Assembly: GCA_937904325.1 (NCBI GenBank)
Contig: CALGTK010000134.1
Location: forward strand, 1-54,779
Direction: 5' to 3'
DNA length: 54,779 bases
Source of the DNA: an uncultured Planctomyces sp.
GTDB lineage: Bacteria > Planctomycetota > Planctomycetia > Planctomycetales > Planctomycetaceae
The position numbers were made by a program, and so were the translations under genes. Shown in pieces: positions 11,301 to 47,733 of this stretch (position 1 is the stretch's first letter; every line of letters begins with the position of its first letter). Below the pieces are notes generated by a model. It had not been told where the DNA came from and searched no databases. It was given only the letters and a program-made list of their open reading frames with translations.

Positions 11301-11700
11301 CGTCCAGTTTAAACTCGACCGGAGCAGTTCTGGCTGATGCTTTGGTCGGCTTTTCCTTCTTTGATGCATCGGGTTGCTGTACAGCCGACTCCGCAATCGT
11401 CACTTCAGGATCGGCTTTCTTTGCAGCAGGCTTCTTCGGCGTTGCCTTTTTACTCGCCGCTTTCTTGCGAGTGGGGGCAGCGGCCGTTTTCTTCGCCAGC
11501 GCAGCAGGCTTCTTCACCTCTGTTTTCGCGGTGGACTTCTTCGGCGTTGCCTTTTTACTCGCCGCTTTTTTACGAGTGGGGGCAGCGGCCGTTTTCTTCG
11601 CCAGCGCAGCAGCTTTCTTCTTTGCAGCTTTCTTCTTCACCGCTGTTTTCGCGGGAGAATCGCCGGTCGCTGCTTTCTTAGTTGCTTTCTTCTTCGCCAC
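8305..11700 (-). CDS. putA: Bifunctional proline dehydrogenase / glutamate-semialdehyde dehydrogenase with histone H1-like N-terminal tail
   Basis: 1131 residues. PutA oxidises proline to P5C with FAD, passing electrons to quinone, then oxidises glutamate semialdehyde to glutamate with NAD+. The PRODH barrel (about 150-600) shows VSVKLSALYSQFSP, VHVDMEQYAYKD, QAYLRDAESDL, RLVKGAYWDYE and YEIQMLYGMAKDQ. The ALDH domain (about 630-1131) shows APWNFPLAI, FTGSRDVG, the general-base Glu in VAEMGGKNA and the catalytic Cys in GQKCSACSR. Oddly, the first 95 residues hold 33 Lys and 30 Ala in KKAA/TPKK patterns like H1 tails, with a perfect 25-residue duplication (31-55 and 66-90). The tail is probably translated: the GTG start at 11700 has GGAGG 10 nt upstream. 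No ribbon-helix-helix domain, as in E. coli PutA, is present. DNA binding by the tail is inference. Confidence 0.95.
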   Translation of the reverse strand: MAKKKATKKAATGDSPAKTAVKKKAAKKKAAALAKKTAAAPTRKKAASKKATPKKSTAKTEVKKPAALAKKTAAAPTRKKAASKKATPKKPAAKKADPEVTIAESAVQQPDASKKEKPTKASARTAPVEFKLDEKNASLIPDVETETQAIGDWLQQHNKRRQPSIFERRWWDDRILSWAMADESVKVQMFRFVDVLPMLKDHQAVSRHLQEYFEEVNDHFPGAVRMVVDHAGPNTVLGRALSMNARSNAVRMAERFISGSTSEEVLASVTKLRKQGFAFSLDLLGEAVVSEPEANRYRNSYSELIDSLANDVNGWSEDTQIDHDDRGPIPRLNVSVKLSALYSQFSPVDPIGTTEVVKKRLRTILRRARRNMAYVHVDMEQYAYKDLTLHIFKDILMEDEFRDFADVGIVIQAYLRDAESDLFKLRQWVAERGTPITVRLVKGAYWDYETVNAEQKGWATPVFKKKWQSDENFERLSRFLLENYQALRPAFASHNLRSLSHAIAWGRKLDVPRSAYEIQMLYGMAKDQAQLFRELGHRVRIYTPFGELIPGMAYLVRRLLENTSNDSFLRHSLAEDIPREKLMAKPSATLSTDQATDKASVATTDAPVFTNEPPLDFSNGEVREEFQAAVDSVAEEFGRDYFVVIDGKRVETRGQLVSRNPSHKNQIVGTVGAASPDDAQDAIDAAEKAFKSWAKFDVNYRAEYLNLLANSLRERRYELAAWQVHECGKTWQEADADVAEAVDFCVYYSQQAIDLLAPREVNLAGEENTYYYRPRGVAAVIAPWNFPLAILTGMTAAAIVTGNTVIMKPAEQSSVIAAKLMEIFQDIDLPDGVVNFLPGVGEEIGPVLVGSHEVDIVAFTGSRDVGLEINRSAAETDPRQTHVKKVVAEMGGKNAIIVDADADLDEAVKGVIESAFNYAGQKCSACSRVVVLRSIYSNFVKRLVAAIRSLKVGYAETAGTTVGPVIDEKSLEQIQKHIEIGKEENRLVLEYPLPEGLAEEGYFIGPQVFADVDPSSRLAQEEIFGPVLAVLPVDDLSEAIEVVNDTDYALTAGVFSRSPGNLKRCVEELEVGNLYLNRGTTGALVNRQPFGGFRMSGIGTKAGGPDYLAQFILPVNVTENTLRRGFAPEAE
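11431..11610 (-). repeat. 75-bp direct duplication inside the putA tail
   Basis: Bases 11431-11505 and 11536-11610 are near-identical direct copies, differing at two positions, and encode the same 25 residues twice. The spacer is 30 bases. This points to recent expansion of the basic tail by tandem duplication, as in other low-complexity H1-like tails. Confidence 0.9.
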
Positions 11701-35255: not shown

Positions 35256-35301
35256 AATCGCCTCCTGGGGTTTGCCCGGGATGTGTTGTGTCTTGAAAAC
35301 T

Positions 35302-35325
35302 TGAGAACCTGAGAACCTGAGAACC
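35302..35325. repeat. Three tandem copies of an 8-base unit
   Basis: TGAGAACC occurs three times in a row in the 75-base gap between the 2Fe-2S and molybdopterin subunit genes. On the mRNA strand this reads GGTTCTCA. Too short to assign a role; a slippage product. Confidence 0.8.
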
Positions 35326-35330
35326 TGAAC

Positions 35331-44617: not shown

Positions 44618-45472
44618 ATGTTTGCTTTTCGTTGTTCGACGATGATCGTTGTTACCGCCGTTTGTTTGCCAGCTTTGCCTGCAGCCGCAGACGGAATGAA
44701 CTATCCGCTCGGAGCGATCCGCTCTGACGATGGAAAGGTCTCCGTAGTTGATTTGCGGCTGCCGGGAGTCTGGCAGGGCAGCGACGGAAAACTCCATCAC
44801 TTCTTCAAAGCGTCGAAGAAGTTCCGCACACCGCTCAACGCCGCCAGGTGTATCGCCTTTGACAAAAATGGCAAAGTTCTGGTCGGAGACACATCGACTC
44901 GGCAGATATATCGATTCAGTGATGACGGAAAGCCAACAAAGCTGGCCGGAGACGGAGTGGGTATCGGTATGCCAATGGCGATGGCCGTTGATGCCGAGGG
45001 AACAATCTTCGTCGCCGACCTTGAACTTCACCGCATCTTTAAGATTCCTCACGAAGGCGGCGAGCCTCTCGAGTTGGCCGTCGTCTCCGCACCTCGCGGA
45101 CTGGCTTTCGACAGCGAAGGAAATCTCATTGTTGTTTCTACGACGAAGGATCAACTTCTGAAAGTCACGATGAAGGGCGAAGTGTCAGTACTCGTCGCCG
45201 GGCGACCGTTCGACTTCCCCCACAACGTCACCATCAGCAAGGACGGCACAAAGTTCATTACCGACGGCTACGGAAAATGTGTGTGGCAAGTCGGCACAGA
45301 CAACAAGCCAGCAAAACTGATCAGTGGCGAGCCATTCGTCAATCCGGTTGGCATTTCGATCGCTGGCGACGTTCTGCTGGTGACCGACCCGCGAGCCAAC
45401 GCCGTCTTCGAGGTGACACTCGACGGCAAGCTGAAAAATCTCAAGCTGCCCGCCGAAGCTCCTGCGAAATAG
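44618..45472 (+). CDS. Secreted SMP-30/NHL-type beta-propeller protein
   Basis: 284 residues. The signal peptide MFAFRCSTMIVVTAVCLPAL is cleaved near PAAADG. The body has NHL/SMP-30-like six-bladed repeats: ARCIAFDKNGKVLVGDTSTR, AMAVDAEGTIFVADLELHRI, GLAFDSEGNLIVVSTT, VTISKDGTKFITDGYG and VGISIAGDVLLVTDP. The regular spacing of D-x-x-G-x-[IL] turns supports a propeller. Lactonase-type metal ligands could not be verified, so it may be a binding protein. Start ATG 44618 has GAGG 5 nt upstream. Its mRNA end carries the 22-base tandem repeat array. Confidence 0.82.
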   Translation: MFAFRCSTMIVVTAVCLPALPAAADGMNYPLGAIRSDDGKVSVVDLRLPGVWQGSDGKLHHFFKASKKFRTPLNAARCIAFDKNGKVLVGDTSTRQIYRFSDDGKPTKLAGDGVGIGMPMAMAVDAEGTIFVADLELHRIFKIPHEGGEPLELAVVSAPRGLAFDSEGNLIVVSTTKDQLLKVTMKGEVSVLVAGRPFDFPHNVTISKDGTKFITDGYGKCVWQVGTDNKPAKLISGEPFVNPVGISIAGDVLLVTDPRANAVFEVTLDGKLKNLKLPAEAPAK

Positions 45473-45488
45473 CTTGTGCCAGGAAACT

Positions 45489-45598
45489 ACTCGCAGTGCT
45501 CTGCCTCTCTACTCGCAGTGCTCTGCCTCTCTACTCGCAGTGCTCTGCCTCTCTACTCGCAGTGCTCCGACTCTCTGGTCGCAGTGCTCCGACTCTCT
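45489..45598. repeat. Five tandem copies of a 22-base unit
   Basis: Units run 45489-45510, 45511-45532, 45533-45554, 45555-45576 and 45577-45598. The first three are identical (ACTCGCAGTGCTCTGCCTCT plus CT). The fourth has CCGA for CTGC and the fifth also has GG for AC at its start. The array begins 17 bases after a stop codon. The unit is not a multiple of three and there are no spacers, so it is neither coding nor CRISPR. The graded divergence indicates stepwise duplication. Confidence 0.95.
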
Positions 45599-45622
45599 GG
45601 GTGAAAAGCCTCAGTTAGGCTA

Positions 45623-45639
45623 ACGCGACAGAGTCGCGT
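45623..45639. terminator. Hairpin after the tandem array, possible terminator
   Basis: ACGCGAC-aga-GTCGCGT forms a perfect 7-bp stem with a 3-base loop. No U-run follows, so termination would be weak or factor-dependent. A second small stem (GCCT/AGGC) lies at 45609-45620. It may end the propeller transcript or be another REP-like palindrome. Confidence 0.45.
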
Positions 45640-45725
45640 GTCAGTGAAAACGAAAATCGGTTTCAAACACAATCCACAGTGACATTTCTGACTTGTTGTT
45701 CATTTCTCCTTCGGAGGATTTCAGA

Positions 45726-46331
45726 ATGCCATCCGAAGTTGATGCCGCTCATGAAGAAAACGATCTGGTCTCGCAGACCCTGCTCGAGTTTCAGACACTC
45801 GCCGAACGAATGCGCAAAGAGACAGCCAGGTCAATCACCAGCGCTGCGGAACTGGTTCACCTCGCAATCAAGTCAGGCAACAAGGTACTGGCCTGCGGAA
45901 ATGGTGGCAGCGCCGCCGAGGCTCAACATTTCATTGCCGAGCTGGTTGGACGGTTTCTCACGGAGCGTGATCCCCTGGCTGGGATCGCCCTGACAGTCGA
46001 CACCTCAGTTTTGACTGCCGTCGGAAATGACTACGGCTACGACGAAGTGTTCGCTCGGCAGGTAAAGGGAATTGGAAAACCCGGCGATGTACTGTTGGCT
46101 ATCTCGACAAGCGGACGTTCGCCGAACGTACTGAAGGCTCTTGCCGCTGCCCGGGAATGCGGCCTGGTAACCATTGCTCTGGTCGGTGCTGATTCAAGCT
46201 CCGAACTTGATATCTGCAACCTGGTCATCACGATCCCCGATCCCAGTACGCCGAGGATCCAGGAGATGCATCTGGTCGTGCTTCACCTGATTTGCGAGCT
46301 GGTCGACAATGCCCTCGCCGCCGCCAAATGA
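45726..46331 (+). CDS. gmhA: SIS-domain protein, probable D-sedoheptulose-7-phosphate isomerase
   Basis: 201 residues, matching GmhA length. GmhA converts sedoheptulose-7-phosphate to heptose-7-phosphate for LPS inner core or S-layer glycans. The SIS fold shows LACGNGGSAAEAQHFIAEL, with the phosphate-binding loop and catalytic Glu region, GRFLTERDPL, TVDTSVLTAVGNDYGYD, AISTSGRSPNVLKAL and the C-terminal RIQEMHLVVLHLICELVD, all near-diagnostic. DiaA-like SIS proteins are the alternative. ATG 45726 has GGAGG 7 nt upstream; the frame is open to 45693. No other heptose genes nearby. Confidence 0.88.
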   Translation: MPSEVDAAHEENDLVSQTLLEFQTLAERMRKETARSITSAAELVHLAIKSGNKVLACGNGGSAAEAQHFIAELVGRFLTERDPLAGIALTVDTSVLTAVGNDYGYDEVFARQVKGIGKPGDVLLAISTSGRSPNVLKALAAARECGLVTIALVGADSSSELDICNLVITIPDPSTPRIQEMHLVVLHLICELVDNALAAAK

Positions 46332-46353
46332 CTGGACGTGGAAAATCTCACCC

Positions 46354-46430
46354 GGTCATCCCCGCGCAGACGGGCAACCATTCTCCAGGATCTGATTGTG
46401 AAACCGGGTCCCTGCCTGCGTGGGATGACC
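46354..46430. repeat. Inverted pair with GGTCATCCC ends between convergent genes
   Basis: GGTCATCCC at 46354-46362 pairs perfectly with GGGATGACC at 46422-46430, and pairing continues imperfectly inward through CGCGCAGACGGG and CCTGCCTGCG. It lies between the 3' ends of gmhA and the third propeller gene. It could act as a two-way transcript end, and resembles the CCCGC-cttc-GCGGG hairpin at 44306-44319. Confidence 0.75.
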
Positions 46431-46455
46431 AAATCCGTAACTTCTGACAGCTTCT

Positions 46456-47733
46456 CTACTCGATGCAGTACAGAGCCTTGTCAGACCGCAGGAACATCTG
46501 CTTACCGCTGATCGCAGGCGTTCCGTTGAAGTCGCTGTCGTCGCCTTTGAATTTGTTCTGCGCCAGCAGTTTGAACTCTGGGCTGGCATCAAGGACGAAG
46601 ACGCCTTCCCTGCGGCTGGGGACAAACAGCTTATCGTCGCACAAAACTGGCGAAGCATAAACGGGTCGCCCGCCACCTCCGACAAGCCGTTCTTTGTAGA
46701 CGGTCTCGCCGGTTTCGGCGTTCATGCAAAATGCGATGCCTTTGTCATTGATCCAGTAGAGGTGTCCTTCGTGCAGAACAGGTGATGCCACATACGACGC
46801 GTCCCGCTTTTTCCAGGCGATATTCGATGTGATGTCGCCTTTTCCTTCAGCTTTGAAAGCCACACTTCCGGTCCCCGGATAGCCGCCCGTAACGTAGATC
46901 ATCCCGTCGGCAAAGTTGACGCTCGGCGAGACGTTGCCAGGCAACTGTGTCTCGCAATACCAGGCGAGTTTTCCATTCGCAGGATTCAAAGCCCAGACTT
47001 CCTGTGGGACTGCGAGGACGAGCAATTCACGATCGCCGCTTTTGATAAGCCGGGGCGTTCCGTAGGCGAGTTCGAGCAGGTCGGCTTCCGTCTTCCAGTT
47101 TTCTTTGCCGGTCTTCTTGTCGAGCGAAATGACCGAGCGGGCTTCTTCTGACGCATTCACGATGACCGCGTCACCGTGAAGGATCAGACTGGCGGCGGAA
47201 CCCCAACGTCGATTGCTCGAACCTGTGCCGACATTGACGGTCCAGAGGTTATTGCCGTGAACGTCGTAGGCGGAAACGCCTGACTTGCCGAAGAAGGCGT
47301 AGACATTTTCACCGTCGGTCACCGGCGTCCCGCTGGCATAGCCGTGCTCAGTAATGAACCCCTGATAGCGATCCTCGCTGGCGTTGTTCTTAACCCCCTG
47401 TGTCCACAGAATCCCGCCGGACGGTTTGTCAACGCAAACCAGATGTCGAGTCAGCCTGGCATCGTCGCCACCGGAAGCTTCGCCGTAGCCTGAGTAACAC
47501 GTCACGAAGACTCGTTCACCCACGACAATCGGTGACGACGACCCTTTTCCGGGCAGGTCAACCTTCCATTTGAGATTCTTTGCCGCATCCCACTTTGCGG
47601 GAATCGGCCCGTCGGTGCTGATTCCGTCGCCGTTGGGACCTCTAAAACGAGGCCAGTCGCCAGCATTGACCGAAGCTTTAGACAGAGCCAGAAGAACGAG
47701 CAACACGCCTGATATTTGATACGACAATTTCAC
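46456..47733 (-). CDS. Secreted PQQ-like beta-propeller repeat protein (copy 3)
   Basis: 425 residues from a GTG at 47733, with GGAGG (47740-47744) 6 nt upstream; this start gives a clean signal peptide (KLSYQISGVLLVLLALSKAS, cleavage near VNAG). A TTG at 47769 is possible but unneeded. The mature part begins DWPRFRGPNGDGIS and continues with WKVDLPGKGSSSPIV, VCVDKPSGGILWTQ, ISLDKKTGKENWKTE and LNPANGKLAWYCE repeats of the PQQ/BamB-like propeller. Related to the copies at 18140 and 29132. Divergent from the intact cyclase gene at 47884. Confidence 0.88.
   Translation of the reverse strand: MKLSYQISGVLLVLLALSKASVNAGDWPRFRGPNGDGISTDGPIPAKWDAAKNLKWKVDLPGKGSSSPIVVGERVFVTCYSGYGEASGGDDARLTRHLVCVDKPSGGILWTQGVKNNASEDRYQGFITEHGYASGTPVTDGENVYAFFGKSGVSAYDVHGNNLWTVNVGTGSSNRRWGSAASLILHGDAVIVNASEEARSVISLDKKTGKENWKTEADLLELAYGTPRLIKSGDRELLVLAVPQEVWALNPANGKLAWYCETQLPGNVSPSVNFADGMIYVTGGYPGTGSVAFKAEGKGDITSNIAWKKRDASYVASPVLHEGHLYWINDKGIAFCMNAETGETVYKERLVGGGGRPVYASPVLCDDKLFVPSRREGVFVLDASPEFKLLAQNKFKGDDSDFNGTPAISGKQMFLRSDKALYCIE

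Follow-up and report, generated by a model that had tools for sequence, protein, structure and literature searches.

The spacer between a propeller gene and a SIS-domain gene

The window, which is the whole stretch of 54,779 nucleotides that was analysed (an uncultured Planctomyces sp., contig CALGTK010000134.1), encodes on its forward strand an NHL/virginiamycin-B-lyase-like beta-propeller protein (44627..45472, with hits to Pfam PF24684 at E 2.4e-13 and PF01436 at E 5e-13), which ends in a TAG stop codon at 45470-45472. It is followed on the same strand by a SIS-domain protein (45726..46331, Pfam PF13580, E 8.6e-31) that we take to be phosphoheptose isomerase-like. Orthologs of the propeller gene are present in all five congeneric genomes (G001-G005, 84-94% identity), and a SIS motif follows the propeller gene in all six genomes of the genus, the window's included; the two genes are a probable two-gene operon. 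The distance between the propeller stop and the first ATG that keeps the SIS frame open is 253 nt in the window, 198 nt in G005, 133 nt in G001, 75 nt in G004 and 44 nt in G002. The earliest in-frame SIS ATG of G003, at 115 nt, falls inside the homologous protein, and so the start in that genome is probably an earlier non-ATG codon.

The spacer of the window contains five 22-bp units in tandem on the forward strand (45489-45598, with unit starts at 45489, 45511, 45533, 45555 and 45577). Units 1-3 (45489..45554) are identical and of a derived type, unit 4 (45555..45576) is parent-like and differs from them at 2 positions, and unit 5 (45577..45598), which differs from them at 4 positions, doubles as the left arm of a dispersed element, lying within a full-length model match at 45579-45649. 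The initial annotation had described a tandem array of five 22-base copies, three of them identical, that begins 17 bases after the propeller gene, and this description is borne out in each part: 84 of the 88 bases compared at a lag of 22 match, versus at most 42 at any other lag between 10 and 199 (multiples of 22 set aside) and at most 46 at lags 10-59 in 500 mononucleotide shuffles of the surrounding 2 kb, and unit 1 begins at the 17th base past the TAG. Tandem Repeats Finder reports the same array (45487-45598, period 22, 5.1 copies, 95% matches, score 182). Short tandem arrays are not rare in this genome, with 16 Tandem Repeats Finder rows in a sample of 242,365 bases that includes the window, one of which is a 16-bp repeat of 4.6 copies (in L100). 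Elsewhere in the window, a 105-bp repeat (1.8 copies, 95%) and then a 15-bp repeat, possibly coding, are found at 11431-11637, and an 8-bp tandem repeat, TGAGAACC, is found in 4.4 copies at 35294-35328.

The array is confined to this genome as far as pattern searches reach. It is absent from all five congeneric spacers, each read for 330 bases past the propeller stop, and thus occupies this site in one of the six genomes of the genus. A 28-nt unit-junction pattern allowing up to 3 mismatches was matched in one of the 170 family genomes, namely this one, and in none of the 169 others, on which ground a dispersed array family in its own right was rejected. Within its own genome, a 20-nt pattern of the unit, with 3 mismatches allowed, was matched at 5 places beyond the array, all with 3 mismatches and all single (the reversed pattern gave 2 places), and 2 exact 12-mers were found outside the array, also single. 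The 20-nt pattern had no match in a wider contig collection from which this genome itself was possibly excluded. An origin from phage was likewise rejected: one exact unit occurs in one viral contig, not in tandem, which is about the chance level by estimate for so large a collection. Its presence at this site in one of six genomes, together with the three identical units, makes the array a plausible candidate for a variable-number repeat, judging from sequence comparison.

The dispersed palindromic element

Comparison of the spacer with the genus by BLAST matched 45579-45675, from unit 5 onward, to a copy elsewhere in the same genome (G000:C324:17410-17506, 74% identical, E 6.9e-9), and 45582-45670 to a copy in G003 (C7, 73% identical, E 9.5e-5). 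With the G003 copy as the query, 16 places in the window's genome (G000), among them the window, and 29 places in G003 were matched at E ≤0.1. An alignment of 33 copies (A1) was made, from which the copy in the window (L126) and the copy at the corresponding site of G005 (L109) were held out on purpose; L105, L145, L147, L149, L151, duplicates, and loci without a hit or a recognizable right end were also left out before alignment, and L107 was dropped in the making of A1 for its internal duplication. The consensus of A1 is a 71-nt core with a closing stem (GTGGC/GCCAC), a left hairpin of either of two types (TCCGCAC-TCC-GTGCGGA or ACGACAC-TCC-GTGTCGT), a middle hairpin (AGCC/GGCT) and a right hairpin (CGCGAC-GGA-GTCGCG).

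Drawn as a cloverleaf of 25 pairs, the alignment has 86.3% of its cells paired versus 79.9% in shuffles, and a covariation of 0.232 versus 0.129 in shuffles (neither reached in any of 500), as against at most 0.076 in slid controls, a comparison that favours the cloverleaf because it was drawn while viewing the same alignment. Cells changed on both sides of a pair number 61, versus 30.2 in shuffles (0 of 500 as high), although related copies can beat shuffles even without structure. Two other measures stand out less clearly: shuffles reached the number of pairs changed on both sides in 73 of 500 cases, and that of further pair types in 21 of 500.

The covariance model built from A1 (R1) recovers the held-out copy of the window at 45579-45649 on the forward strand (model positions 1-71 of 71, 42.7 bits, E 2.7e-10) and matches nothing else in the window. 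This core of a MITE-like element consists of a degenerate left arm, a middle hairpin and a perfect right hairpin. The adjoining 45650..45676 is possibly an eroded right outer arm: the BLAST alignment with the C324 copy reaches 45675, and 13 of 24 positions agree, a score that is weak by itself, being reached by 344 of 5800 shuffled flanks.

In the window's genome, R1 has 41 rows that merge across strands into at least 28 distinct loci, 14 of which are rows of A1; 28 is a lower bound because only 125 of 2467 candidates were scored. Matches at E ≤0.001 are found in five of 40 relatives (G000, G002, G003, G005, and G011 of another genus), and congeners G001 and G004 have none at this threshold. 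Under stricter filters (E ≤1e-5), 22 of the 170 family genomes, in 12 of 58 genera, have matches, G114 and G115 having strong ones that reach 79.3 bits; the weaker matches beyond the genus are possibly other palindromes.

The propeller-SIS spacer of G005 (L019, G005:C296) contains the held-out copy of the element, at 42.8 bits, without the array; the spacers of the other four congeners have neither the array nor an R1 match. The end motif GTGCCACTG also occurs in a perfect inverted repeat of 23 bases in the same G005 spacer. G003, the congener with the most nearly identical propeller, has no copy of the element in this spacer, and therefore an insertion shared with G005 would require either a loss or two insertions. 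One gene further on, however, G003 has a well-kept copy of 93.4 bits (L018, C6:645173-645243), 22 bases past the SIS stop at 645151. Clusters of several copies together with partial ones were observed in G003 at C17:513400-523900 (L222) and C8:182700-185800 (L223).

The element spans 122 bp between its outer ends in three copies with the 71-nt core. Ends of the AGGAACGTGTCCGAAATAACTTCC type, at 16 or more of 24 positions, are present on the left of 16 of 29 copies (15 in register), on the right of 14, on either side of 20 and on both sides of 10, and shuffled flanks reach 16 of 24 in 2 of 5800 cases; the copy in the window falls below this threshold at both ends (left 8 of 24, right 13 of 24). 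As to a target-site duplication, TA by eye often stands beside an end of the element, and the flanks are mixed. In the search for an autonomous partner bearing the same ends, among 18 end pairs listed, 82-173 bp apart, 15 lack the core motif as searched, and no longer end pair was found up to 3000 bp, within loci of about 3 kb around 30 matches taken as loci in fragmented genomes. The family thus has the small size and many dispersed copies of a MITE (a 71-nt core at 28 or more loci of one genome) and also, through its AGGAACGTGTCCGAAATAACTTCC-type ends, the terminal inverted repeats.

The GTAG tag of REP sequences occurs in 2 of the 33 rows of A1 and CTAC in 3, and PF01797, the RAYT-type Y1 transposase, has no match in the window's genome versus matches in 5 of 14 control genomes; membership among the GTAG-type REP sequences was rejected on these two grounds. 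For the CGTC tag of REP sequences, 32 of the 33 rows contain its reverse complement GACG, which lies at the foot of the right hairpin in the consensus and is partly paired there; the published REP tags are unpaired (PMC3733652). A known Rfam RNA was also rejected, as all three Rfam matches at E ≤5 in 45300-46500 fall below the gathering score. A description of this element family was not found in the literature on repeats in Planctomycetes, element-derived tandem repeats and MITEs at stop codons, at the level of titles and abstracts among the matches listed, a body that mostly excludes subscription papers.

Stop codons were surveyed at the 27 copies in the window's genome besides that of the window, taking frames of at least 100 codons that point at the element, which are mechanical frames rather than proven genes, and placing the edge of the element 24 bases from the core. 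Of 43 frame-closing stops from -150 to +59 of the edge, 15, in 15 different copies, lie at -8 to +1, ten positions that were picked after viewing the list and to which an even spread would assign about 2 of the 43; in the preset range of -4 to +1, 9 of the 27 copies have at least one stop. Around 42 ends of any such element (loci L105-L190, an overlapping set), 8 of the 18 stops from -80 to +59 are at -1 or -2. Were insertions into genes selected against, this could sharpen the peak. The copy in the window fits this stop-adjacent habit, given that the 17th base past a stop is the first of unit 1, though the left end of the copy itself is not recognizable (8 of 24).

Origin of the array

The array is very probably a young, species-level minisatellite that was born inside the remnant of a non-autonomous palindromic mobile element. 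Units 4 and 5 share CTCCGACTCTCT, and only 2 and 5 of 2000 shuffles match the left arm of the C324 copy as well as they do; units 1-3 share CTCTGCCTCTCT, and 39-46 of 2000 shuffles match that arm as well. The match depends on the arm chosen: with one consensus arm, 15-16 of 2000 shuffles are as good for units 4 and 5 and 59-67 for units 1-3, and with the ACG-type consensus the figures are 126-143 for units 4 and 5 and 1221-1228 for units 1-3, the latter being no match. By these comparisons, units 1-3 look derived and homogenized and units 4 and 5 look parent-like. The array had been read at first as three identical units followed by progressively diverged ones, and the counts of 0, 2 and 4 differences agree with that reading, but its polarity is probably reversed, units 4 and 5 being closest to the parent element. 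Parent-like units nearest the element and identical, derived units near the gene point to a probable expansion of the array in the direction of the gene. As a candidate eroded outer arm, the 18 bases ahead of unit 1 match the left outer repeat at chance level (358 of 2000 shuffles as good), scoring 4 versus 2-4 in element-free congeners.

In the order of events that we infer, a MITE-like element of about 120 bp would have inserted between the propeller and SIS genes near the propeller stop, a frequent site for the family, and the copy would then have decayed, so that its left outer arm is unrecognizable and its left hairpin little paired. The array would have expanded toward the propeller gene via slippage or unequal crossing-over, which are given as minisatellite mechanisms in a published review (PMC6947457), and it would be transcribed as untranslated spacer within the probable two-gene operon. 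Small tandem duplications in other copies of the element (14 bp x 2.4 in L107; 13 bp x 2.2 and x 2.0 in L222; 136 bp x 2.0 in L223) suggest that the family is prone to small internal duplications; none of the other copies examined has a 22-bp array. Most likely the array has no selected function of its own, neutrality being argued here from absence only.

A bolder proposal takes the parent to be a MITE family of planctomycetes, as yet undescribed, whose core is a covarying cloverleaf and whose insertions fall exactly at stop codons, the ends leaving or restoring the stop. The family would thus keep landing in the 3' ends of transcripts, where its arms could bud into arrays, the present one included, with the role of tunable 3' elements of mRNA; taken as a whole, this is unlikely. 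Also unlikely is that the array has been co-opted for RNA-level control of the propeller-SIS pair, as a C-rich run for the loading of Rho or as hairpins of paired units that guard the 3' end, with copy number tuning the downstream gene. The array is indeed rich in C (44 C versus 22 G over its 110 bases), a skew found in 0.23% of 110-base windows on both strands of the 242,365-base sample (window included), the genome has a match to the Rho RNA-binding domain (118.6 bits), and the order of the two genes is kept in all six genomes of the genus. A Rho loading site, however, is unlike well-paired RNA, and the predicted fold of the array RNA is a well-paired one (-35.2 kcal/mol, z -4.0, with none of 200 shuffles as stable), a z value that is no proof of selection because shuffling destroys the repeat. 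The spacer as a whole does not fold better than its shuffles (z -0.60), and five congeners have a spacer between the same two genes without the array. An effect of the array on the transcript end, which the initial annotation had entertained, is unsupported by the sequence, as an intrinsic terminator was sought and rejected on the forward strand, with no terminator-like site in 45300-45800; two overlapping terminator-like sites are on the reverse strand at 45762-45779.

It is highly improbable that the array is an artefact of assembly: the genome is a draft in 488 contigs, but the differences among the units, only some of which are identical, follow an order, and usual sequencing reads are longer than the 110 bp of the array. 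Hardly credible is a row of sites for a DNA-binding protein, for although five units in phase at 22 bp (about 2.1 turns of B-DNA) recall the earlier suggestion of protein binding on one face at a spacing of two helix turns, no support for this was found: the duplicated arm accounts for the length of 22 bp, and the patterns reveal no second array in this genome or in the 169 other family genomes, hence no sign of a regulon.

Comparison with known repeats and mobile elements

Read as a minisatellite born inside an element remnant, the array is real but ordinary; what sets it apart is that its founder can be named. It provides a traced case of a bacterial minisatellite whose founding sequence is one arm of a mobile-element remnant. 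The search has also brought out, within this bacterial family, a dispersed element family whose edges meet stop codons above an even spread, a testable target preference, and this parent family and its stop-codon edges merit more attention than the array.

The nearest parallels to the array are the minisatellites and satellites derived from transposable elements, MITEs included, in which a piece of a dispersed element likewise becomes a tandem unit; the review that describes them (PMC6947457) deals with eukaryotic genomes, whereas the present founder, of about 120 bp, belongs to a bacterium. Among bacterial elements, QMITE2 of Coxiella burnetii (150-190 bp) is, as described, alike in being small, non-coding and located mainly in 3' untranslated and intergenic regions, and it is described once at a stop codon; by the same description it differs in carrying a GTAG REP and direct repeats of 7-11 nt (PMC5896051). 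REP elements, reported for Planctomycetes too, are similar as short palindromic hairpins that lie mostly downstream of coding regions and sometimes form arrays (PMC3733652). The present element differs from them in the lack of a Y1 transposase match in the genome, its longer three-hairpin core and its outer inverted repeats.
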